Position numbers and translations under genes: made by a program | Assembly: GCF_021172165.1 (NCBI RefSeq) | Contig: NZ_CP089096.1 | Location: 434,001-498,000 of the forward strand | DNA length: 64,000 nt | Direction of reading: 5' to 3' | Origin: Flavobacterium channae | GTDB taxonomy: Bacteria > Bacteroidota > Bacteroidia > Flavobacteriales > Flavobacteriaceae | Notes under the pieces: generated by a model | Database searches by the model: none | What the model saw: only the letters and a program-made list of their open reading frames with translations | Told to the model about the DNA's origin: nothing | Shown here: positions 2,975 to 63,164 of the stretch, piece by piece | Numbering within the stretch: the stretch's first letter is position 1 | Layout of the letters: every line of letters begins with the position of its first letter

Positions 2975-3017
2975 AATGTTTGTGTTAAATAGAATAATTA
3001 ACTTTCTAATTAAATTA

Positions 3018-3105
3018 ATTTAGATTATTTTTCTAAATATTGAAAATAAAATAACAAAATTTAGATTTTTATTCTAAATATTTTTTGTGATAGATTTTTA
3101 TTCTA
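3018..3105 (+). promoter_or_regulatory. Three TAGA-N7-TCTA palindromes upstream of the metX leader (putative operator)
   Basis: Two perfect palindromes ATTTAGA-N7-TCTAAAT lie at 3018-3038 and 3059-3079. A degenerate copy TAGA-N7-TCTA at 3091-3105 overlaps the -7 box. The centres are 41 and 29 bp apart, roughly whole helical turns. The same spacing class recurs upstream of metH. The arrangement looks like an array for a dimeric repressor or activator. The cognate protein is not identified in the window. Confidence 0.6.
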
Positions 3106-3111
3106 ATTTTG
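3085..3111 (+). promoter_or_regulatory. Promoter of the metX leader transcript
   Basis: TTG at 3085-3087 and TAATTTTG at 3104-3111 match the Bacteroidetes -33/-7 consensus (TTG, TAnnTTTG) with a 16-nt spacer. Transcription would begin near 3118, about 16 nt before the leader peptide ATG. Confidence 0.6.
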
Positions 3112-3133
3112 CCCTGTAAAACAAAAGTAAAAA

Positions 3134-3202
3134 ATGATTTATACGATTTGCAATATGTGTATGATGATGTGGAATTTTCCGCAGAGGTCGACTATTGTAT
3201 AA
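3134..3202 (+). CDS. Methionine-rich leader peptide of the metX attenuator
   Basis: This is a 22-codon ORF too short for routine gene calling. Codons 8-13 read Met-Cys-Met-Met-Met-Trp, so four of six codons are for the product amino acid of the downstream operon. It begins about 16 nt after a predicted transcription start. Its 3' half contains CAGAGGT (3182-3188), the same sequence as the 3' arm of the terminator that follows. This is the layout of a ribosome-mediated transcription attenuator. The peptide itself probably has no function beyond being translated. Confidence 0.75.
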   Translation: MIYTICNMCMMMWNFPQRSTIV

Positions 3203-3256
3203 TTTTAAATCAAAAAAATATTCAATGCTACCTCTGTTTTAAACAGAGGTTTTTTT
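3149..3256 (+). promoter_or_regulatory. Methionine attenuator: antiterminator and terminator
   Basis: The terminator is ACCTCTG (3230-3236) pairing with CAGAGGT (3244-3250), followed by seven T. The competing antiterminator is the earlier CAGAGGT at 3182-3188 pairing with the same ACCTCTG. A possible protector stem is TGCAATA (3149-3155) with TATTGTA (3193-3199), enclosing the Met codons. A ribosome stalled at the Met codons would break the protector stem and leave 3182-3188 free to block termination. A ribosome reaching the stop at 3200 would cover it and allow the terminator to form. Pairings were found by eye. Confidence 0.72.
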
Positions 3257-3274
3257 ATTGTAAAAATTAAAGAT

Positions 3275-3325
3275 ATGGAAGTGAGAATTTATATTCCAAG
3301 AAGATATTGCCGAATGTGTTCATGA
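3275..3325 (+). CDS. Possible second short leader ORF (16 codons)
   Basis: An ATG-initiated ORF of 16 codons lies between the first terminator and a second terminator in front of metX. Its last residues are Tyr-Cys-Arg-Met-Cys-Ser, again with sulfur amino acids, plus several Arg and Tyr codons. Whether it is translated is unknown. It ends 34 nt before the second terminator stem, too far for simple coupling to it. Confidence 0.3.
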   Translation: MEVRIYIPRRYCRMCS

Positions 3326-3358
3326 TTATTTAATGAAGTTTAGATTTTTGTTTGTTTG

Positions 3359-3400
3359 AAGACTGCCGATAGAAAACCTACCTAAAGGCAGTCTTTTTTA
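3359..3400 (+). terminator. Second terminator-like hairpin directly before metX
   Basis: AAGACTGCC (3359-3367) pairs with GGCAGTCTT (3388-3396) around a 20-nt loop and is followed by a T run. It ends 10 nt before the metX start, so metX needs read-through or regulated antitermination here. No obvious competing copy of either arm was found upstream. Confidence 0.65.
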
Positions 3401-3409
3401 AAAAGTAAG

Positions 3410-4375
3410 ATGAGTTATATTCAAAAAATAGTGTTCGAGAATTTCCCATTGCAAAATGGAGTGTTGCAATCAAAGGTTATTCTTTCTTATCAATTGTTCG
3501 GGCAGTCTATTGGAACAGCGCCTTTAGTTTTGGTAAATCATGCGTTAACAGGCAATTCGCATGTTATTGGAGAAAATGGTTGGTGGGAATCTTTAATTGG
3601 AGAACAAAAAACGATTGATACAAATAAGTATACAGTTTTAGTTTTCAATATTCCAGGAAATGGTTATCAAGATGAAAATAATCTAATTGAAAACTATCAA
3701 GATTTTACCACAAAAGATATTGCTAATCTATTTTGGAAAGGAATAGATTCATTTAAAATTGAAAGTGTTTTTGCAATTATAGGCGGAAGTTTAGGTGGAG
3801 CAATTGCTTGGGAAATGAATGCACTTCGTCCAAATGCAGTTCAGAATTTAATTCCAGTAGCTACAAGTTGGAAATCTTCTGATTGGTTAATTGGAAACGT
3901 CTTAATTCAAGATTTGATTTTGAAAAATTCTAAAAATCCTATTCACGATGCTAGAATTCACGCCATGTTGTTGTATCGAACTCCCGAATCATTGCAAGAA
4001 AAATTTCAGACCAAATTGCAAAATTCGGAAGGATTGTTTCAAGTGGAAAGTTGGTTGTTCCATCACGGAGAAAAATTGCAAAACAGATTTCAACTTTCAG
4101 CTTATAAACTGATGAATCATTTGTTGAAAACTACCGATATTTTTAGAAATAACAACCAATCTGAAATTATAAAAAGCATTACAGCAAACATTCATTTGGT
4201 AAGCGTGGATACCGATTATTTTTTTACTGCAAACGAAATCAAAACAGCTTTTCAGGAAATCAAAAACTACAAAAACAATGTGTTTTATCACGAAATCAAA
4301 TCCATTCACGGACACGATGCTTTCTTGATTGAATTTGAACAACTAAACAACATACTAAAACCTATATTTAATTAG
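3410..4375 (+). CDS. metX: Homoserine O-acetyltransferase
   Basis: This alpha/beta-hydrolase-fold acyltransferase converts homoserine and acetyl-CoA to O-acetylhomoserine, the first committed step to methionine. The N-terminal HALTGNSH oxyanion region, the nucleophile elbow GGSLGG (Ser near residue 128) and the C-terminal SIHGHDAFL with the catalytic His are all present. At 321 residues it is somewhat shorter than classical MetX (350-380), as in other Flavobacteria. It lies downstream of a methionine leader-peptide attenuator and 7 nt before thrA, with which it forms an operon. Acetyl rather than succinyl specificity is inferred from family. Confidence 0.87.
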   Translation: MSYIQKIVFENFPLQNGVLQSKVILSYQLFGQSIGTAPLVLVNHALTGNSHVIGENGWWESLIGEQKTIDTNKYTVLVFNIPGNGYQDENNLIENYQDFTTKDIANLFWKGIDSFKIESVFAIIGGSLGGAIAWEMNALRPNAVQNLIPVATSWKSSDWLIGNVLIQDLILKNSKNPIHDARIHAMLLYRTPESLQEKFQTKLQNSEGLFQVESWLFHHGEKLQNRFQLSAYKLMNHLLKTTDIFRNNNQSEIIKSITANIHLVSVDTDYFFTANEIKTAFQEIKNYKNNVFYHEIKSIHGHDAFLIEFEQLNNILKPIFN

Positions 4376-4382
4376 AAATCAA

Positions 4383-6797
4383 ATGAAAATATTAAAATTT
4401 GGAGGAAAATCATTAGCAAACGGAGAAGGATTGCAAAAAGTAATTCAAACCATTGCTCAAAAATATTTTAATAATGAACCTATAGCAGTGGTCGTTTCAG
4501 CAAGAGGAAACGCTACTGATGAATTGGTAATTCTACTAAAAAAAGCACAAGCCAACATTAGTTTTCAAGCAGATTTTGAGCAATTCAAAAAATACCAATT
4601 GGAAGGTTTGAAAGAAAACATCTTCGAAGAAGAATTCTCAGTTTTGCAGAAATTATTAGAAGGTGTTTCGCTTTTAGGAGATTATAGCGAAAAAATTAAA
4701 GATCAAGTTATTGCTTATGGCGAAATTTTATCAGCAAAATATGTTGCTTATGTTTTAAATGAAAACAGTATTAAAGCACAATTTGTCGATTCACGCCAAC
4801 TAATTAAAACCGATGCAAATTTTGGAAATGCGCAACCAATAGAAGCTACTTCAAAGCAAAATATATTGGAATATTTCGTTAAAAACGGCGATAAAGTAAA
4901 TATTATTACAGGTTTTATCGGTTCAACTGTGCTTAACGAAACAACAACTTTAGGAAGAAACGGGAGTAATTACACTGCTTCGTTAATTGCAAATTATCTT
5001 AATGCGGAAGAATTTCAAAATTACACACACGTAGACGGAATTTTTACCGCTAACCCAGATTTAGTAGCTGATGCAAAAAAAATTGAGCATTTGTCTTTTA
5101 ATGAAGCAAATGAGTTGGCAAACTTCGGGGCGCAAATTTTACATGCCAAAACCATTATTCCTTTGGTGGAAAAAAACATTCCATTACGCATTTTAAATAC
5201 TTTCAATCCGGAAAATAACGGAACGTTAATTACTTCGGAACAAACTAATGAAGGCATCAAATCGCTTTCGGTTTTAACCAATGTGTCGCTGATTAATTTA
5301 GAAGGAAGAGGTTTGTTAGGGAAAACAGGGGTTGATGCAAGAATTTTCCGTGTGATGGCTGAAAATGATATTAGTGTTAGCATTATTTCGCAAGGTTCTT
5401 CAGAAAGGGGAATTGGTTTAGTTGTGAGTTCTGATAAGGCTTCGAAAGCTTTAGTGGGTTTGGAAAAAGAATTTGAAACCGATTTTTACACGAAAGATGT
5501 CAATAAAATTTCGGTAAACGATAACATTGCGGTGATTTCAATTATTGGACAAGATTTGACGAATTTCCACAAACCTTATACGGCTTTAATCCGAAATAAA
5601 ATCACACCTATTTTATTAAACAATACGGTTACGGGTAGAAATATCAGTTTGGTAATCAGTAAAGAGGAATTCAAACGCGCATTAAACGTAATTCATGGTG
5701 AAGTTTTTGGTGTGGCAAAAAAAATCAACATTGCTATTTTTGGTCATGGAACTGTTGGTGGAACTTTAATTAACCAAATTTTAGAATCAGCAAAAAATAT
5801 CGAAAAGCGAAAAGGAATTAAGCTAAATGTGTTTGCGATTGCAAATTCTAAAGAAGTATTGTTGAATAAATTTGGAATAGGCGAAAACTGGAAAGCGGTA
5901 TTAGAAGATAAAGGTCAAGAATATAAAGTAGAAGATATTATTGCTTACGCAAAAGAGCATCATTTAGAAAATTTAATCGCAATTGATAATACGGCAAGTG
6001 ATACTTTTATTGAGAATTATATTGCTTTGGCAGAAAATAGTTTCGATTTAATTTCGTCTAATAAAGTAGCCAATACGGTAAGTTATGATTTTTATAAAAA
6101 ACTTCGAAAAGTATTAGCTGAAAATCAAAAGGAATATTTGTATGAAACTAATGTTGGCGCAGGTTTGCCATTAATTGACACGATTAAATTACTGCATTTA
6201 TCAGGAGAAAATATCACTAAAATAAAAGGTGTTTTTTCAGGAACATTGAGTTATTTGTTCAATAATTTCTCAGTTCAAGACAAGAAATTTAGCGAAGTTT
6301 TGCAAGAAGCAATCGATAAAGGATTTACAGAACCAGATCCGCGTGAAGATTTAAACGGAAATGACGTTGGTAGAAAGTTATTAATCTTGGCTCGTGAATT
6401 GGATTTGCAAAATGAGTTTGAAGAAATAAAAATTCAAAACTTAATTCCAGAAAATTTAAGAGAAGGAAGTGCTGCAAGTTTCTTAGAGAAATTAACTGAA
6501 TTAGACGGAATTTACGATGAAGTAAAAGCATCTAAAAAAGCTGATGAAGTTTTGCGTTATATTGGTGAATTGTCTGGAGATTTACAACAAGATAAAGGGA
6601 ATTTAGAAGTAAAATTAATTTCAGTTCCAGCTAATTCTGCTTTAGGATCATTAAAAGGTTCAGATTCTATTTTCGAAATTTATACTGAATCGTATGGTGA
6701 ACAACCAATTGTAATTCAAGGAGCAGGAGCAGGAGCTTCTGTAACTGCAAGAGGTGTTTTTGGAGATATTTTGCGTTTATCAGAGAAAAAATTATAA
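4383..6797 (+). CDS. thrA: Bifunctional aspartate kinase / homoserine dehydrogenase
   Basis: This 804-residue fusion catalyses the first and third steps from aspartate to homoserine. The N-terminal kinase starts with KFGGKSLANGEG and contains GRNGSNYTAS. Two ACT-like regulatory segments follow (about residues 310-450). The homoserine dehydrogenase begins at about residue 450 with the NADP loop GHGTVGG and includes FSGTLSYLFN near residue 617. Both active halves look intact. Feeding homoserine directly to MetX explains the metX-thrA operon. The ACT region suggests end-product feedback, but the effector cannot be told from sequence alone. Confidence 0.93.
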   Translation: MKILKFGGKSLANGEGLQKVIQTIAQKYFNNEPIAVVVSARGNATDELVILLKKAQANISFQADFEQFKKYQLEGLKENIFEEEFSVLQKLLEGVSLLGDYSEKIKDQVIAYGEILSAKYVAYVLNENSIKAQFVDSRQLIKTDANFGNAQPIEATSKQNILEYFVKNGDKVNIITGFIGSTVLNETTTLGRNGSNYTASLIANYLNAEEFQNYTHVDGIFTANPDLVADAKKIEHLSFNEANELANFGAQILHAKTIIPLVEKNIPLRILNTFNPENNGTLITSEQTNEGIKSLSVLTNVSLINLEGRGLLGKTGVDARIFRVMAENDISVSIISQGSSERGIGLVVSSDKASKALVGLEKEFETDFYTKDVNKISVNDNIAVISIIGQDLTNFHKPYTALIRNKITPILLNNTVTGRNISLVISKEEFKRALNVIHGEVFGVAKKINIAIFGHGTVGGTLINQILESAKNIEKRKGIKLNVFAIANSKEVLLNKFGIGENWKAVLEDKGQEYKVEDIIAYAKEHHLENLIAIDNTASDTFIENYIALAENSFDLISSNKVANTVSYDFYKKLRKVLAENQKEYLYETNVGAGLPLIDTIKLLHLSGENITKIKGVFSGTLSYLFNNFSVQDKKFSEVLQEAIDKGFTEPDPREDLNGNDVGRKLLILARELDLQNEFEEIKIQNLIPENLREGSAASFLEKLTELDGIYDEVKASKKADEVLRYIGELSGDLQQDKGNLEVKLISVPANSALGSLKGSDSIFEIYTESYGEQPIVIQGAGAGASVTARGVFGDILRLSEKKL

Positions 6798-6878: not shown

Positions 6879-8051
6879 ATGGATAATCAAGAATTAGGAT
6901 TAGAAACCCAGCTAATAAGAACACAATTAGAACGTACGCAATATTTAGAGCATTCGGTTCCATTATATTTAACATCAAGTTTTGTTTTTGAAGATGCAGA
7001 AGACATGCGTTCTTCTTTTGCAGAAGAAAAACAACGTAATATTTATAGCCGTTTTTCAAATCCAAACACATCAGAATTTGTAGACAAGATTTGTAAATTA
7101 GAAGGAGCCGAAGATGGATTTGCTTTTGCAACAGGAATGGCAGCAGTGTATTCAACTTTTGCAGCTTTACTTAATGCTGGTGACCATATCGTTTCGGCAA
7201 GTAGTGTTTTTGGTTCAACACATACGTTGTTTACCAAGTATTTTCCAAAATGGAATATTACAACGAGTTATTTTGATGTAAACAAACCAGAAACGATTGA
7301 AGATTTCATTCAACCGAATACCAAAATCTTATATGCTGAATCGCCAACAAATCCTGCGGTTGATATATTAGATTTAGAATTATTAGGACAAATTGCTAAA
7401 AAACACAATTTAATTTTAGTTATTGATAATTGTTTTGCAACACCTTACATTCAAAATCCAATTCAATTTGGTGCCGATTTAGTAATTCATTCTGCTACGA
7501 AATTAATTGATGGTCAAGGTCGTGTTTTAGGTGGAGTTACTGTTGGTCGTGCCGATTTAATCAGAGAAATCTATTTGTTTTCAAGAAATACAGGTCCGGC
7601 ATTATCACCATTTAATGCTTGGGTGTTGTCTAAGAGCTTGGAAACGTTGCCAGTTCGAATAGAAAAACATTGTGAAAATGCTCAAAAAGTAGCTGAATTT
7701 TTAGAAAGTCATCCTAATGTTGCTGCTGTGAAATACCCATTTTTGAAATCGCATCCACAATATGAAGTAGCAAAACGACAAATGAAGTTGGGTGGAAATA
7801 TTGTAGCGTTTGAAATCAAAGGAGGAATCGAAGCTGGAAGACAATTTTTAGATAAAATCAAGTTGTGTTCGTTGTCCGCGAATTTAGGTGACACACGTTC
7901 GATTGTTACGCATCCAGCTTCCACAACTCATAGTAAGTTGACTGAAGAAGAACGATTAGCAGTAAGTATTACTGATGGTTTGGTACGCGTTTCTGTGGGT
8001 TTGGAAACAGTTCAAGATGTAATTAACGACTTAAAACAAGCGTTAGAATAA
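6879..8051 (+). CDS. metZ: O-acylhomoserine sulfhydrylase (Cys/Met metabolism PLP enzyme)
   Basis: This PLP-dependent gamma-family enzyme of 390 residues most likely condenses O-acetylhomoserine with sulfide to give homocysteine, joining the sulfate and aspartate branches present in this window. The PLP lysine lies in HSATKLIDGQG near residue 207. The active-site tyrosines and RNIYSRFSNPNTSEF fit the family, as does SLGDTRS-like text (SANLGDTRSIVTHPAST). The absence of a metB/metC pair nearby and the presence of metX favour direct sulfhydrylation. The family also contains cystathionine enzymes, so substrate choice is an inference. Confidence 0.82.
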   Translation: MDNQELGLETQLIRTQLERTQYLEHSVPLYLTSSFVFEDAEDMRSSFAEEKQRNIYSRFSNPNTSEFVDKICKLEGAEDGFAFATGMAAVYSTFAALLNAGDHIVSASSVFGSTHTLFTKYFPKWNITTSYFDVNKPETIEDFIQPNTKILYAESPTNPAVDILDLELLGQIAKKHNLILVIDNCFATPYIQNPIQFGADLVIHSATKLIDGQGRVLGGVTVGRADLIREIYLFSRNTGPALSPFNAWVLSKSLETLPVRIEKHCENAQKVAEFLESHPNVAAVKYPFLKSHPQYEVAKRQMKLGGNIVAFEIKGGIEAGRQFLDKIKLCSLSANLGDTRSIVTHPASTTHSKLTEEERLAVSITDGLVRVSVGLETVQDVINDLKQALE

Positions 8052-8069: not shown

Positions 8070-8159
8070 ACAGATTTATATTCTGTTTAAAATTATTAAT
8101 TTAGAATGTAAATCTATAAATAATCTTTTTTTAATGAAATTTTAGAAAATATTTCATAA
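8070..8159 (+). promoter_or_regulatory. Palindromes related to the metX operator, upstream of metH
   Basis: ACAGA-N7-TCTGT occurs at 8070-8086 and TAGA-N7-TCTA at 8102-8116. A weak copy TTTAGA-N7-TCATAA lies at 8141-8159. Centres are 31 and 41 bp apart, close to the 41 and 29 bp spacings seen before metX. The first two copies also form a larger inverted repeat (8072-8084 with 8103-8115), so a terminator-like hairpin at the end of the previous gene is an alternative reading. Confidence 0.45.
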
Positions 8160-8182: not shown

Positions 8183-8205
8183 CAGTGTTCATAATTATAG
8201 TGTTT

Positions 8206-8309
8206 GTTATCACGAAAGCTGGAGGGAATAGACCCTGTGAAAGCTTAGCAACCTCCCGCGCCAGTGGAAAGGTGCTACATTCTATTCCGATTTATCGGAA
8301 GCAGATAAC
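8206..8309 (+). ncRNA. SAM-I (S-box) riboswitch
   Basis: The closing stem P1 is GTTATC (8206-8211) with GATAAC (8304-8309). The conserved core has GGAGGGA, CCCTGTGAAAGC, TTAGCAACC and AAGGTGCTA in S-box order. It lies directly upstream of metH, a standard S-box target. No terminator follows. Instead ATTGCTCTC (about 8316-8324) can pair with GAGAGAAT (8382-8389) just before the start codon with one bulged base, which suggests control of translation initiation. That expression platform is inferred, but the aptamer call is firm. Confidence 0.9.
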
Positions 8310-8392
8310 GTTAGAATTGCTCTCCAACTTTCTACGGTAACAAATTAAGTTAATAAAGAAAATTAGGTAATTAGCCTTTGCGAGAGAATACA

Positions 8393-9385
8393 ATGTCAAA
8401 AATTCAAGAAGAAATCAAAAAACGAATTCTCGTGCTCGATGGAGCTATGGGAACGATGTTGCAACGTTATAAATTTGAAGAAGAAGATTTTAGAGGAGAA
8501 CGTTTCAAAGATTTTCCACATCCTTTAAAAGGAAATAACGATTTACTTTCCATTACTCAACCCGAAGCTGTAAAATCGGTACATCGCGCTTATTTTGAAG
8601 CAGGTGCCGATATTGTAGAAACCAATACTTTTTCGGGAACTACTATCGGAATGGCGGATTATCACATGGAAGATTTAGTCTATGAGTTGAATTTTCAATC
8701 AGCAAAAATCGCTCGTGAAGTTGCTGATGAATTTACAGATAAACCAAGATTTGTTGCGGGTTCAATTGGTCCAACAAATAGAACCGCTTCTATGAGTCCA
8801 GATGTGAATGACCCAGGATTTCGCGCGGTGAATTTTGACGACTTAAAAATTGCTTACAAACAGCAAGTCGAAGCTTTAATTGATGGTGGTTGCGATTTAC
8901 TTTTGGTAGAAACCATTTTCGATACTTTAAATGCAAAAGCCGCTTTGTTTGCGATTGAGGAAGTGAAAGAGGAACGCAATATCGATATTCCAGTAATGGT
9001 TTCAGGAACAATTACCGATGCTTCTGGAAGAACACTTTCAGGACAAACCGTGGAAGCTTTTTTGATTTCGATTTCACATATTCCGTTGTTAAGTGTTGGA
9101 TTTAATTGCGCTTTAGGAGCTGATCAATTGAAACCGTATTTGAAGCGACTAGGAAATAGTACCTCGTTAAATATTTCAGCGCATCCCAATGCAGGTTTAC
9201 CCAATGCCTTCGGACAATATGACCAAACGCCTGAAGAAATGCAACAATTAATTCGCGAGTATTTACAAGAAAATCTAGTGAATATCATCGGTGGATGTTG
9301 CGGAACAACTCCCGAACACATCAAATTAATTGCTGAAGTAGCAAATGAATTTCAACCTAGGACACAACAATTGAAATCCGTTTAG
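8393..9385 (+). CDS. metH: Methionine synthase, homocysteine-binding (N-terminal) subunit
   Basis: This 330-residue protein is only the zinc-dependent homocysteine S-methyltransferase domain of cobalamin-dependent methionine synthase. It begins with LVLDGAMGTMLQ. The zinc ligands are the Cys in GFNCALGA (about residue 240) and the Cys pair in GGCCGTTPEH (about 300). The remaining MetH domains are encoded by the separate gene at 9546, so the enzyme is split and presumably assembles. ATG at 8393 is chosen over an in-frame TTG 15 nt upstream, because the former follows the GAGAGAA segment targeted by the riboswitch platform. Expression should be repressed by S-adenosylmethionine. Confidence 0.9.
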   Translation: MSKIQEEIKKRILVLDGAMGTMLQRYKFEEEDFRGERFKDFPHPLKGNNDLLSITQPEAVKSVHRAYFEAGADIVETNTFSGTTIGMADYHMEDLVYELNFQSAKIAREVADEFTDKPRFVAGSIGPTNRTASMSPDVNDPGFRAVNFDDLKIAYKQQVEALIDGGCDLLLVETIFDTLNAKAALFAIEEVKEERNIDIPVMVSGTITDASGRTLSGQTVEAFLISISHIPLLSVGFNCALGADQLKPYLKRLGNSTSLNISAHPNAGLPNAFGQYDQTPEEMQQLIREYLQENLVNIIGGCCGTTPEHIKLIAEVANEFQPRTQQLKSV

Positions 9386-9415: not shown

Positions 9416-9556
9416 ATGAAAAACAATACCATAAAAATACAATTCGAAACATTTTTACAGTCGCAACGATGTTGGGTTTGCCAATACGTGAGCAACAGTA
9501 AATCTTTTTGGAAGGATGTTGCGAAACATTATAAAAGAATAAGTAATGAGTTATAA
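9416..9556 (+). CDS. Possible small protein between the two metH genes
   Basis: A 46-codon ORF with an ATG start fills the gap between the two metH genes and overlaps the start of the second by 11 nt. The product is basic and aromatic, with a CWVC pair near residues 19-22 and a C-terminal half rich in Lys, Trp and Tyr. No family is recognised. It may be a real coupling ORF, or a chance reading through the linker. The overlap with the next start and the full use of the gap favour the former, but codon evidence is too thin to decide. Confidence 0.35.
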
Positions 9557-12221
9557 TTCCGATAAATATTTAAAATTATCAGGTTTAGAACCTTTGATTG
9601 TAACTCCAGAAACCAATTTTGTAAACGTTGGAGAACGAACAAACGTAACCGGTTCTAGAAAATTTCTTCGATTAATTAAAGAAGAAAAATACGATGAAGC
9701 GCTTGAAATTGCACGTGCTCAAGTTGAAGGTGGCGCGCAAATCATCGATGTTAATATGGATGAAGGAATGTTAGATGGCGTTTATGCGATGACTAAATTT
9801 CTAAATCTAATAGCAGCCGAACCCGATATTGCCCGAGTTCCAGTAATGATTGATTCTTCGAAATGGGAAATCATTGAAGCTGGGTTGAAAGTTATTCAAG
9901 GAAAAGGCGTGGTGAATTCGATTTCGTTAAAAGAAGGAGAAGCTACTTTCATTCATCATGCCAAATTAATCAAACGCTACGGAGCCGCTGTAATCGTTAT
10001 GGCTTTTGATGAAAAAGGTCAAGCTGATACTTACGAAAGACGTATCGAAATCTGTAAAAGAAGTTATGATATTTTGGTGAACCAAGTGGGTTTTCCAGCA
10101 GAAGATATCATTTTTGATCCCAATATTTTTCCAGTTGCAACCGGAATGGAAGAGCATAAATTAAATGCATTAGATTTCTTCCAAGCGACCAAATGGATTC
10201 GCGAAAATCTTCCTTATGCTCATGTTTCGGGTGGAGTGAGTAATGTGTCTTTTTCTTTCCGTGGTAACGATAAAGTGCGAGAAGCAATGCATTCCGCATT
10301 CTTATATCATGCCATTCAAAACGGAATGACGATGGGAATTGTGAATCCTGAAATGTTAGAGATTTACGATGAAATTGATAAAAATCTTTTAGAACATGTT
10401 GAAGATGTTTTATTAAATAGAAGAGAAGATGCCACAGAACGTTTATTAGATTTAGCCGAAAGTTTTAAAGGTGATGTAAAATCAAATGAAAAAGCTGTGG
10501 CCGAATGGCGAAATGGTTCAGTTCAAGAACGATTAACGCATTCGTTAGTTAAAGGAATTGATGAGTTTATCGAAATCGATATCGAAGAAGCACGTTTGCT
10601 GGCTTCAAAACCTATCGAAGTTATCGAAATCAATTTAATGGCTGGAATGAACGTGGTGGGTGATTTGTTTGGTTCGGGAAAAATGTTTTTGCCGCAAGTA
10701 GTAAAATCAGCACGGGTGATGAAAAAAGCAGTTGCTTATCTGCTTCCTTATATCGAAGCTTCAAAAGATGGTTCTACTTCGTCAAGTGCTGGGAAAGTAT
10801 TGATGGCAACTGTAAAAGGCGATGTTCACGATATTGGTAAAAATATTGTTTCGGTAGTTTTAGCGTGTAATAATTTCGAAATCATCGATTTAGGTGTGAT
10901 GGTTCCGCCAGAAAAAATTATTGAAACTGCTGTAAAAGAAAATGTTGATATTATTGGTTTAAGCGGATTGATTACGCCTTCTCTTGATGAAATGGTGTAT
11001 TTAGCCAAAGAAATGGATAAATTAAATATCAAAATCCCCGTAATGATTGGTGGTGCGACAACTTCACGTGCACATACGGCTGTGAAAATTGCTCCAGAAT
11101 ATAAAGAAACCGTGGTTCATGTGAACGATGCGTCTCGAGCAGTAACAGTTGCAACCAATTTATTACAACCCGATACTAAATTTACCTATGCAAAATCGCT
11201 TCGAGAAGAATATGATTTGCTTCGAGAAGGATATTTAAATAGAAGTCGTGAGAAAAATTTCTTATCAATTGATGAAGCGCGTAAAAATAAATTCAAAATC
11301 GAATGGGATAATTACGAACCTGTAAAACCAAATTTCACTGGAACAAAAACAGTTGAAGTTGAACTTTCAGAATTAGTAGATTTTATCGATTGGACTCCGT
11401 TTTTTCAGTCATGGGAATTGTATGGGAAATTTCCAGCGATTTTAACCGATGAAATTGTAGGCGAACAAGCGACTCATTTGTTTGAAGATGCACAAAAAAT
11501 GCTTTCTCAAATTGTTGCTGAGAAATGGTTTGAAGCAAAAGGTGTTTTAGGGATTTTCCCTGCGAATACAATAAATCACGATGATGTAGAGCTTGTCACT
11601 TCGAGCGGAGTCGAGAAGTTCCTGAGTTTAAGACAACAATCTCAAAAAACGGTTGGAGCTCCAAACATCGCTTTAGCAGATTTTATTGCTCCGAAAGAAA
11701 TTGGTAAACAAGATTATATTGGGTGTTTCTGTGTGTCAACAGGTTTTGGAGTTGATGAAAAAGCTTTAGAATTTGAAAAGCAATTAGACGATTATAATTC
11801 CATTTTGGTAAAAGCATTAGGAGATAGATTAGCAGAAGCTTTTGCGGAATATTTGCATTTAAAAGTCCGAAAAGAAATTTGGGGTTATGCTTCTGAAGAA
11901 TGTTTGTCAAACGATGAATTAATAAAAGAAAAATATCAAGGTATTCGCCCGGCACCAGGTTATCCGGCTTGTCCAGATCATTTAGAAAAACCAACCATTT
12001 GGAAATTATTAAATGTTGAAGAAAATATAGGTGTTAAGCTAACCGAAAGTATGGCGATGTGGCCTGCTTCATCAGTATCGGGTTATTATTTTGCCAATCC
12101 ACAAAGTAAATATTTTGGATTAGGAAAAATAAAAAAAGATCAAATAGAAGATTATGCCAAAAGAAGAAATATTAGTATTGAGCAAGCCGAAAAATGGCTA
12201 TCACCAAATTTAGCAGATTAA
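9546..12221 (+). CDS. metH: Methionine synthase, folate/cobalamin/activation subunit
   Basis: This 891-residue protein carries the methyltetrahydrofolate-binding barrel ([14 protein letters not shown] near residue 27), the cobalamin cap and Rossmann domains with the base-off cobalt ligand in [10 protein letters not shown] (about residue 425), and a C-terminal AdoMet reactivation domain ([12 protein letters not shown] near residue 800). Together with the upstream gene it forms complete MetH, transferring methyl from methyl-THF through cobalamin to homocysteine. Between the cobalamin and activation domains, codons from 11591-11620 ([10 protein letters not shown]) match a dispersed palindromic repeat read in frame. 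metF follows one base after the stop. Confidence 0.93.
11591..11620 (+). repeat. Palindromic dispersed repeat inside metH coding sequence
   Basis: The segment CTTGTCACTTCGAGCGGAG plus TCGAGAAGTT resembles a repeat common between genes in Bacteroidetes genomes (ACTTC...GAAGT arms). Here it is translated in frame in a loop of the MetH activation region. The repeat identity is from memory of such genomes, not from a search. Confidence 0.5.
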
Positions 12222-63050: not shown

Positions 63051-63063
63051 TTTTACCAACTAA

Positions 63064-63119
63064 CCCCGATAGTAATGAAAATCCAATGCATTAGCATGGC
63101 TTGTAATGTATAGCGGGAA
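63064..63119. repeat. Structured intergenic repeat before folC
   Basis: CCCCGATAG (63064-63072) faces TAGCGGGAA (63111-63119), and TGCATTA pairs with TAATGTA inside. The CCCCGAT...AGCGGG frame is familiar from flavobacterial intergenic regions. Function is unknown. Confidence 0.45.
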
Positions 63120-63164
63120 TATGGACCACAAGAATGCCCAAACCATTCGTTTCAAATAATAAAA

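Follow-up and report, generated by a model that had tools for sequence, protein, structure and literature searches.

Genes and features at the locus

The window (the whole 64,000-nucleotide stretch of Flavobacterium channae DNA that we analyzed) contains a cluster of methionine genes (Table 1). A short leader is followed by a metX-like gene, thrA, and a metZ-like gene, and then by a SAM-I riboswitch in front of metH. (MetH lies in two ORFs: 8378-9385 encodes the homocysteine-binding N-terminal part and 9546-12221 encodes the remainder.) The ORF at 1532-2974 fuses the N-terminal domain of siroheme synthase with a TauE/SafE sulfite-exporter domain. Elsewhere in the window, positions 63058-63124 match the Flavo-1 RNA (43.5 bits; the gathering score is 42).

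Upstream of the leader's promoter are two palindromes, TTTAGA-N7-TCTAAA (3019-3037 and 3060-3078), which are the only exact copies in the window. A relaxed copy lies at about 3089-3107, and a copy with one mismatch lies at 8100-8118, before the metH riboswitch. These are possible transcription-factor sites. At two mismatches, the window has 17 copies versus a chance mean of 14.7, a count that is not above chance and so does not favor an operator.

Table 1. Features of the leader and of the genes that follow it, in window coordinates
Feature	Position	Strand	Basis
Putative -7 promoter box TAATTTTG	3104..3111	+	Sequence
Leader ORF1 MIYTICNMCMMMWNFPQRSTIV	3134..3202	+	Sequence; leader family conserved
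Control codons Cys-Asn-Met-Cys-Met-Met-Met in ORF1	3149-3169	+	Sequence
Outer protector stem, 5' strand TGCAATA (partner 3193-3199)	3149..3155	+	Sequence, folding
Inner protector hairpin TGTGGA/TCCGCA	3168..3183	+	Folding; local hairpins in relatives' leaders
Arm 2 GCAGAGGT, antiterminator 5' strand	3181..3188	+	Folding; concerted arm change
Outer protector stem, 3' strand TATTGTA	3193..3199	+	Folding
Arm 3 ACCTCTGTT, shared by terminator (5' strand) and antiterminator (3' strand)	3230..3238	+	Folding; concerted arm change
Arm 4 of terminator T1, and T-run	3242..3256	+	Folding
Second small ORF (type B; ORF2) MEVRIYIPRRYCRMCS-stop; nearest clade MKIAIYNPRRCCRMCS-stop	3275..3325	+	Sequence, motif search, clade comparison
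Second terminator-like hairpin, then T-run	3358..3396	+	Folding, -17.3 kcal/mol, z = -5.9
metX-like homoserine O-acyltransferase, first gene after the leader	3410..4375	+	TIGR01392 best match, 181 bits, under the curated cut-off of 500
thrA, bifunctional aspartate kinase/homoserine dehydrogenase	4383..6797	+	NF006959, 760 bits (cut-off 726)
metZ-like O-succinylhomoserine sulfhydrylase	6879..8051	+	NF006003, 513 bits, just below the cut-off of 522
SAM-I riboswitch before metH, the other sensor of the gene cluster	8204..8311	+	RF00162, 76.1 bits

The leader and its alternative pairings

The sequence-only reading had described a small ORF with clustered Met codons, a terminator, a second copy of one terminator arm, and a protecting stem. 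Re-reading the sequence bore this out. The ORF runs from the ATG at 3134 to the TAA at 3200-3202 (22 codons), the Met-Cys-Met-Met-Met codons are at 3155-3169, and the stop codon is 30 nt past the last control codon. The terminator comprises ACCTCTG (3230-3236), CAGAGGT (3244-3250), and a T-run (3250-3256), all exactly as described, and the extra CAGAGGT is at 3182-3188. The protector stem is possible too: TGCAATA (3149-3155) can pair with TATTGTA (3193-3199), with one G-U pair. Given the Bacteroidota -7 consensus, the box at 3104..3111 is presumably the -7 element, and we infer that transcription starts at about 3117-3120.

We then folded the leader. The RNA from 3120 to 3259 has a folding energy of -33.2 kcal/mol (z = -4.3; none of 200 shuffled sequences equaled it), with the protector and the terminator both present. 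The terminator fold has -11.4 kcal/mol (z = -5.2) and is followed by seven T's. The RNA from 3172 to 3243, the part that a stalled ribosome would leave exposed, by itself forms the antiterminator (-14.1 kcal/mol, z = -3.6). This antiterminator is longer than had been described: 3181-3188 pair with 3230-3237, and farther in, 3194-3197 of the outer protector stem find an alternative partner in 3223-3226. Two folds without the last terminator arm were unremarkable compared to shuffled sequences (z = -1.35 and -1.19).

The first bases of the inner protector hairpin belong to the last Met codon, and its far end overlaps the beginning of arm 2. Of 74 leaders, 70 have a local hairpin of -3 kcal/mol or lower at this place; the 5' strand of the outer stem, in our alignment, is not preserved in several relatives. 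The hairpin at 3168-3183 also explains why a Trp codon follows the Met run (TGTGG pairs with CCGCA). Sensing of Trp through this TGG codon need not be invoked, as 12 of the 16 leaders that lack Trp retain a local hairpin of -3 kcal/mol or lower (the others are L150, L154, L158, and L193).

To see how unusual such a leader is in the window, we filtered both strands of the 64 kb for a small Met/Cys-rich ORF followed by a terminator-like hairpin and a T-run. Two places passed: this leader and a minus-strand site near 16.2 kb.

The attenuator model does not account for the hairpin and T-run at 3358-3396, between the attenuator and metX. This hairpin is homologous to the one between metY and metX in F. 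cheniae, and next to it, the last codon of metY and its stop codon match as well. So metY was seemingly lost in the window's lineage, and the hairpin, by this comparison, seems to be a relic of the metY-metX intergenic region. We found no close metY in the window's genome (the best matches have 38-43% identity). We also considered ORF2 and this hairpin as a second attenuator. By eye, ORF2 contains no arm complementary to AGACTGCC, and since the hairpin is the old intergenic one, this reading is unsupported.

Distribution of the leader

We searched for the pattern CCGCAGAGG-N20..50-CCTCTG-N2..14-GAGGTTTT. We scanned 398 genomes of the genus and found it 45 times, in 43 genomes; the reversed pattern has no match. 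All 45 matches have a Met/Cys-rich leader ORF that reaches into or beyond the arm, and the peptide usually has the form CNMC-x-MMW-xx-PQR. This conservation among relatives excludes a chance small ORF.

Among 84,980 named genomes, the exact pattern found 61 stretches. Of these, 59 have the leader ORF, and their records are named Flavobacterium, Flavobacteria, Flavobacteriaceae, Flavobacteriales, or Bacteroidetes. (The named carriers include F. cheniae, F. cucumis, F. aquaticum, F. sasangense, and F. davisii.) The other two are omitted from our leader counts: L126 (Flavobacterium) is an incomplete stretch without a leader, and L097, from a Hungatella bin, is a chance match within an apparent coding region. 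In a sample of 149 genomes from the family, the sole match was the window's own; the pattern is absent from all 147 genomes of other genera and from one further member of the genus.

We also built a covariance model, R1, from 40 leaders. Among the matches listed, R1 has strong matches (E < 1e-6) in 14 of the 147 from other genera of the family, and the leader ORF was recovered for 13 of these 14. (L148 is a strong match in which no leader passed our filter.) At E <= 0.05, R1 matches 122 of the 149 genomes; we used only E < 1e-6 and treated the remainder as mostly noise. Some of the weaker matches are real, because L162 (E = 2.3e-5) has a leader of the second type that is Met-rich. In an order-wide sample of 119 genomes, R1 has 8 matches at E <= 1e-4. 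Seven of these are from the window's genus, including its own genome, and the eighth (G059) is from another family: its leader is MIQIQKNMCCMCMCRNYTEAYYAL, and a PAPS-reductase gene follows after a small gene. The leader filter found no ORF1 in L191 and L192, and nothing in L196 and L197.

The arms change together

We then examined the arms in 70 leaders. In the 45 that were selected by the pattern, the pairing of the arms was partly imposed by the search, and the independent evidence comes from the other 25. In 9 of the 70, the terminator arm lacks CCTCTG and arm 2 has changed to match, so all three arms changed together. The altered pairs are GCAGCGG with CCGCTGC in L151 (one pair shorter in L155, L156, and L159), GCAAGGGC with GCCCTTGC in L153, AGGGCTT with AAGCCCTTGC in L068, GGGCTT with AAAAGCCC in L069, GCAGGG with CCCCTGC in L152, and TAAAGGC with GCCTTTGC in L161. 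These nine have a mean score of 17.7 with their own arm 3, versus 11.5 with CCTCTG-type arms. When the arms were permuted over all 70 leaders, the observed mean was reached in none of 5000 trials, by a statistic that ignores kinship. The co-variation is not clean in every case, because the best helix of L157 sits elsewhere (31 nt from the stop codon).

We also compared reading frames. Of the 45 leaders selected by the pattern, 7 read CCGCAGAGG in a different frame, in which SAE replaces PQR (SAED in L031, L032, L044, L055, and L071; SAEG in L050; SAEA in L056). In the remaining 38, the distance from the start codon to the arm is a multiple of three. Because the arm is kept across frames, it is the RNA that is conserved at arm 2 and not the peptide, which we can exclude as the conserved entity there.

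The sequence-only reading had said in advance that it should be given up if close relatives did not conserve the Met codons or the duplicated arm. The Met/Cys leader is conserved in 45 of 45 matches, and in distant relatives the duplicated arm covaries with the terminator, so the reading withstood this test.

A model for attenuation

We simulated a ribosome stalled with the cluster's last Met/Cys codon in its A site and with its edge 12 nt downstream (12 nt corresponds to the footprint of the ribosome). In this stalled state, 73 of 74 leaders form the antiterminator. Its start lies 2-3 nt past the ribosome's edge in 61 of the 74, 1 nt past it in 6, and 4-6 nt past it in 7 (the covered bases were masked, so no distance below 1 could arise). 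When the ribosome is placed at the stop codon instead, the antiterminator remains in 16 of 74. The results for these two simulated positions fit attenuation. Without a ribosome, the minimum-energy fold retains the antiterminator in 37 of 74 leaders, so the protector is not dominant in every relative, although it is in the window.

Overall, sequence and comparison identify a leader ORF, Met and Cys codons, mutually exclusive arm pairings, a terminator, the spacing of these parts, and a place before genes for sulfur amino acids. From these features, we consider it highly probable that the element is a ribosome-mediated transcription attenuator that senses the charging of tRNA-Met and tRNA-Cys. 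Most likely, it would switch on sulfur amino-acid genes when Met or Cys runs short.

We propose that it would work as follows. RNA polymerase would begin roughly 15 nt upstream of ORF1, with a ribosome behind it. If Met and Cys are plentiful, the ribosome would reach the stop codon and cover arm 2 (3181-3188), arms 3 and 4 would pair, and transcription would end near 3256. When too little tRNA-Met or tRNA-Cys is charged, the ribosome would stall at 3149-3169 with its leading edge just short of arm 2. The stall would break the protector, arm 2 would pair with arm 3, the terminator would not form, and metX-thrA (and probably metZ) would be transcribed. With no ribosome, the protector would favor termination in the window's leader. 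A complication is that translation itself begins with Met, so a severe shortage of Met could reduce initiation on the leader and weaken the response.

Genes behind the leader and the balance of Met and Cys codons

The sequence-only reading had presented the element as the leader of a metX-thrA operon. It does head metX, but this is not its sole site: copies also lie before metY, cysH, serine acetyltransferase, and a cystathionine-synthase-like gene. Specifically, a metX-like gene directly follows the leader in the window and in L037, L043, L051, L072, L104, L134, and L160 (in L051, as in the window, the profile score is under the cut-off). Elsewhere metY (O-acetylhomoserine sulfhydrylase) follows; in L106 and L068, its TIGR01326 score exceeds the cut-off. 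L031 and L032 precede a gene of the cystathionine-synthase/lyase group that reaches no curated cut-off, and so, by resemblance, does L055. cysH follows L041 and L071 (above the cut-off) and L102 and L145 (by resemblance), and serine acetyltransferase (cysE) follows L044 and L188, above the EpsC cut-off. L056 and L190 precede not a biosynthetic gene but a TonB-dependent receptor (identified by its Plug domain in L056 and by resemblance in L190), so the uptake of some sulfur compound may share this control.

The window's genome has a second copy about 8.3 kb ahead of the window, and its leader reads MILNVCNMCCIMWKFLQRTPIA. This copy heads cysH, and the genes after cysH are for sulfate assimilation and cysteine synthesis. 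It has 3 Cys codons and 2 internal Met codons, versus 2 Cys and 4 internal Met in the metX copy. Because the cysH copy is richer in Cys and poorer in Met, the leader family is probably tuned via codon choice. Across the family, the share of Cys is higher before cysH or cysE (7 leaders, mean 0.52) than before Met genes (54 distinct leaders, mean 0.32; p = 0.016). This comparison leaves out L056, L069, L159, L190, and L193 as "other" (L069 actually precedes a metY-like gene, and L193 has a PAPS-reductase gene after a small gene). Once copies are counted, the tuning by gene is modest, because two of the cysH copies bear a Met-rich leader; without those two, p = 0.001, but p = 0.016 is the figure to use.

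The Met codons are conserved, as expected of the Met-sensing leader that had been proposed, but a sensor of Met only does not hold up: Cys codons join it, with at least one in 64 of 74 leaders. Could ORF1 sense Cys and not Met, with the Met codons kept by chance or for RNA pairing? This prevalence of Cys would suit such a sensor, as would the excess or parity of Cys over Met in 4 of the 7 leaders before cysH or cysE, and TGCAATATG does overlap the protector stem. But 10 of the 74 leaders have no Cys, including three before a cystathionine-synthase-like gene that have 5-6 Met codons. Also, 65 of the 74 leaders end their control codons with Met, and the metX and cysH copies in the window's genome differ in Met as well as in Cys. 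We therefore consider a Cys-only sensor improbable, and the charging of both tRNAs remains our preferred signal.

Exchange with the SAM-I riboswitch

We compared 27 metX loci from the genus. In 12 of these, the attenuator lies before metX or a metY-metX operon (its arms have diverged in five, L065-L069). The other 15 have a SAM-I riboswitch whose end lies 84-102 bp upstream of metX, as judged by comparing coordinates by hand. The exact attenuator pattern is in none of the 15 genomes with these SAM-I loci, and no SAM-I match lies within 2.5 kb of the attenuator in any of the 43 genomes that carry it. Instead, 32 of the 43 have SAM-I on the same contig at 2.6-23 kb (the nearest, at 2.6 kb, is in G381), 8 have it on another contig, and 3 have none. 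The same-contig riboswitch is before metH in the window, and in G205 it scores under the family cut-off. One genome (G030) has both arrangements: one metX is behind an attenuator and metY, and another is about 100 bp past a SAM-I riboswitch.

That sister species have riboswitches at the same place, and that the leader folds into a stable structured state, might suggest that an RNA that senses a metabolite or a protein (a riboswitch or the site of an RNA-binding protein) drives the terminator and that the small ORF is incidental. But Rfam yielded no match better than E = 0.75 at 2975-3480, with every match far under its gathering score, and no covariance model for SAM-I, another known riboswitch, or a T-box matched this region. 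Moreover, conservation tracks the ORF, its Met/Cys codons, and the spacing from codons to arm, none of which a ligand-binding RNA needs. This explanation is very unlikely.

Tandem leaders and the second ORF

The attenuator is often followed by another small ORF. Sorting the 45 leaders by eye, we found 28 with a second Met/Cys-rich ORF (such as MNVIAKNMMMSCMMMCTMCCISSSYYQKRKT), 11 with a type-B ORF (the window's clade), and 6 with neither. The second Met/Cys-rich ORF is followed by a second terminator, such as AGTCCTTTTGG...CCAAAAGGACT. We scored the arms of the second switch at 32 loci, leaving out L161, and shuffled arms did as well as the leaders' own arms in 3 of 5000 trials. In six leaders (L034, L066, L069, L083, L150, and L155), the own arm was no better than the arms of others. 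From these scores, the second switch in tandem leaders is likely real, although the first has the better support.

The motif of the type-B ORF, RR[CY]CRMCS-stop, occurs in 11 of the 398 genomes of the genus, and all 11 are behind this leader. Between the window and its clade, Arg, Cys, and Ser codons (AGC to TCA) change synonymously. We saw no terminator of the second type before metY in the type-B clade, and no terminator lies directly behind ORF2.

A missing terminator behind ORF2 is what one might expect if the leader controlled translation, for example through coupling of metX to the small ORFs or re-initiation after them, with the hairpins as pause or decay elements only. Re-initiation from leader ORFs has been proposed to be general (PMC4833913). 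But T1 is a canonical hairpin with a T-run in the aligned copies, and the first gene follows T1 at anything from 26 to 343 nt, a spacing too variable for coupling. We give control of translation scarcely any weight compared to attenuation of transcription.

Building on attenuation, we can imagine two-stage sensors. ORF1 and T1 would read the charging of tRNA-Met and tRNA-Cys, and the second small ORF would read the same or a related signal in another way. In the window's clade, ORF2 would be a nascent-chain sensor (IYxPRRxCRMCS-stop) that is kept at the peptide level while its codons change. This idea is speculative, and we think it rather unlikely. If it is true, the first methionine gene would be preceded by two sensors in a row, one of tRNA charging and one of the arrest type.

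Relation to known systems

The attenuators of the trp, his, thr, leu, and phe operons have a leader ORF rich in codons for the product, alternative arms, an intrinsic terminator, and a stop codon at which the ribosome masks arm 2. The Flavobacterium leader shares this layout of ORF, arms, terminator, and stop codon. It differs from them in its Met and Cys codons, its phylum (Bacteroidota), its RNA sequence, and the tandem ORF in 28 of 45 copies. Attenuation was reportedly surveyed by Lopatovskaya et al. in 2010. SAM-I (RF00162), found ahead of metX in sister species and of metH in the window, senses SAM directly, unlike this leader, and its aptamer is absent from 2975-3480. We take RF01692, the Bacteroid-trp motif, to be a Trp leader; in a covariance search, it had no match in the window's leader. 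In the accessible text of its description, this motif is a candidate cis-regulatory RNA of Bacteroidetes (Weinberg et al. 2010, PMC2864571).

Other comparisons draw on the accessible portions of several papers. Short Cys leader ORFs precede cys genes in Mycobacterium, P. acnes, and B. longum; in these, the Cys codons cluster close to the stop, and no terminator hairpin is conserved (Seliverstov et al. 2005, PMC1262725). As far as that account goes, ORF1 of the window is not of this type, as it has a terminator, a duplicated arm, and control codons 30 nt from the stop. ORF2 of the window (CRMCS-stop) seems closer to that layout than ORF1 is. The transcriptome of F. psychrophilum, from the same genus, gave strong clues for leader-peptide attenuation before amino-acid operons, and its conserved 5' elements include those of pheA and hisG (PMC9723704). 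In the accessible portion, the genes named are pheA and hisG, versus Met/Cys genes here, and the word methionine does not appear in the main text. Leader-peptide systems were described as known from Proteobacteria and Actinobacteria, with Firmicutes added (Naville and Gautheret 2010, PMC2965389, in part). In the available sections of the B. thetaiotaomicron map (PMC7366714), there is nothing on a Met leader-peptide attenuator. More broadly, in the accessible open-licence literature, we did not find a Met/Cys leader-peptide attenuator in Bacteroidota, and an earlier mention may exist.

This kind of regulator is known. This version of it appears new in the amino acids that it would sense, in its phylum, in its tandem ORFs, and in its exchange with a SAM-I riboswitch.

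Implications

Methionine genes are standard examples of control by riboswitches, T-boxes, and repressors. A leader peptide that counts Met codons is an odd addition, as Met also begins every protein. With it, a phylum with few described attenuators would gain such a system, and one genus would use either a SAM-sensing riboswitch or a sensor of tRNA charging at the same gene. The natural variants of the leader, from Met-only to Cys-rich, make the specificity of the sensor directly testable.
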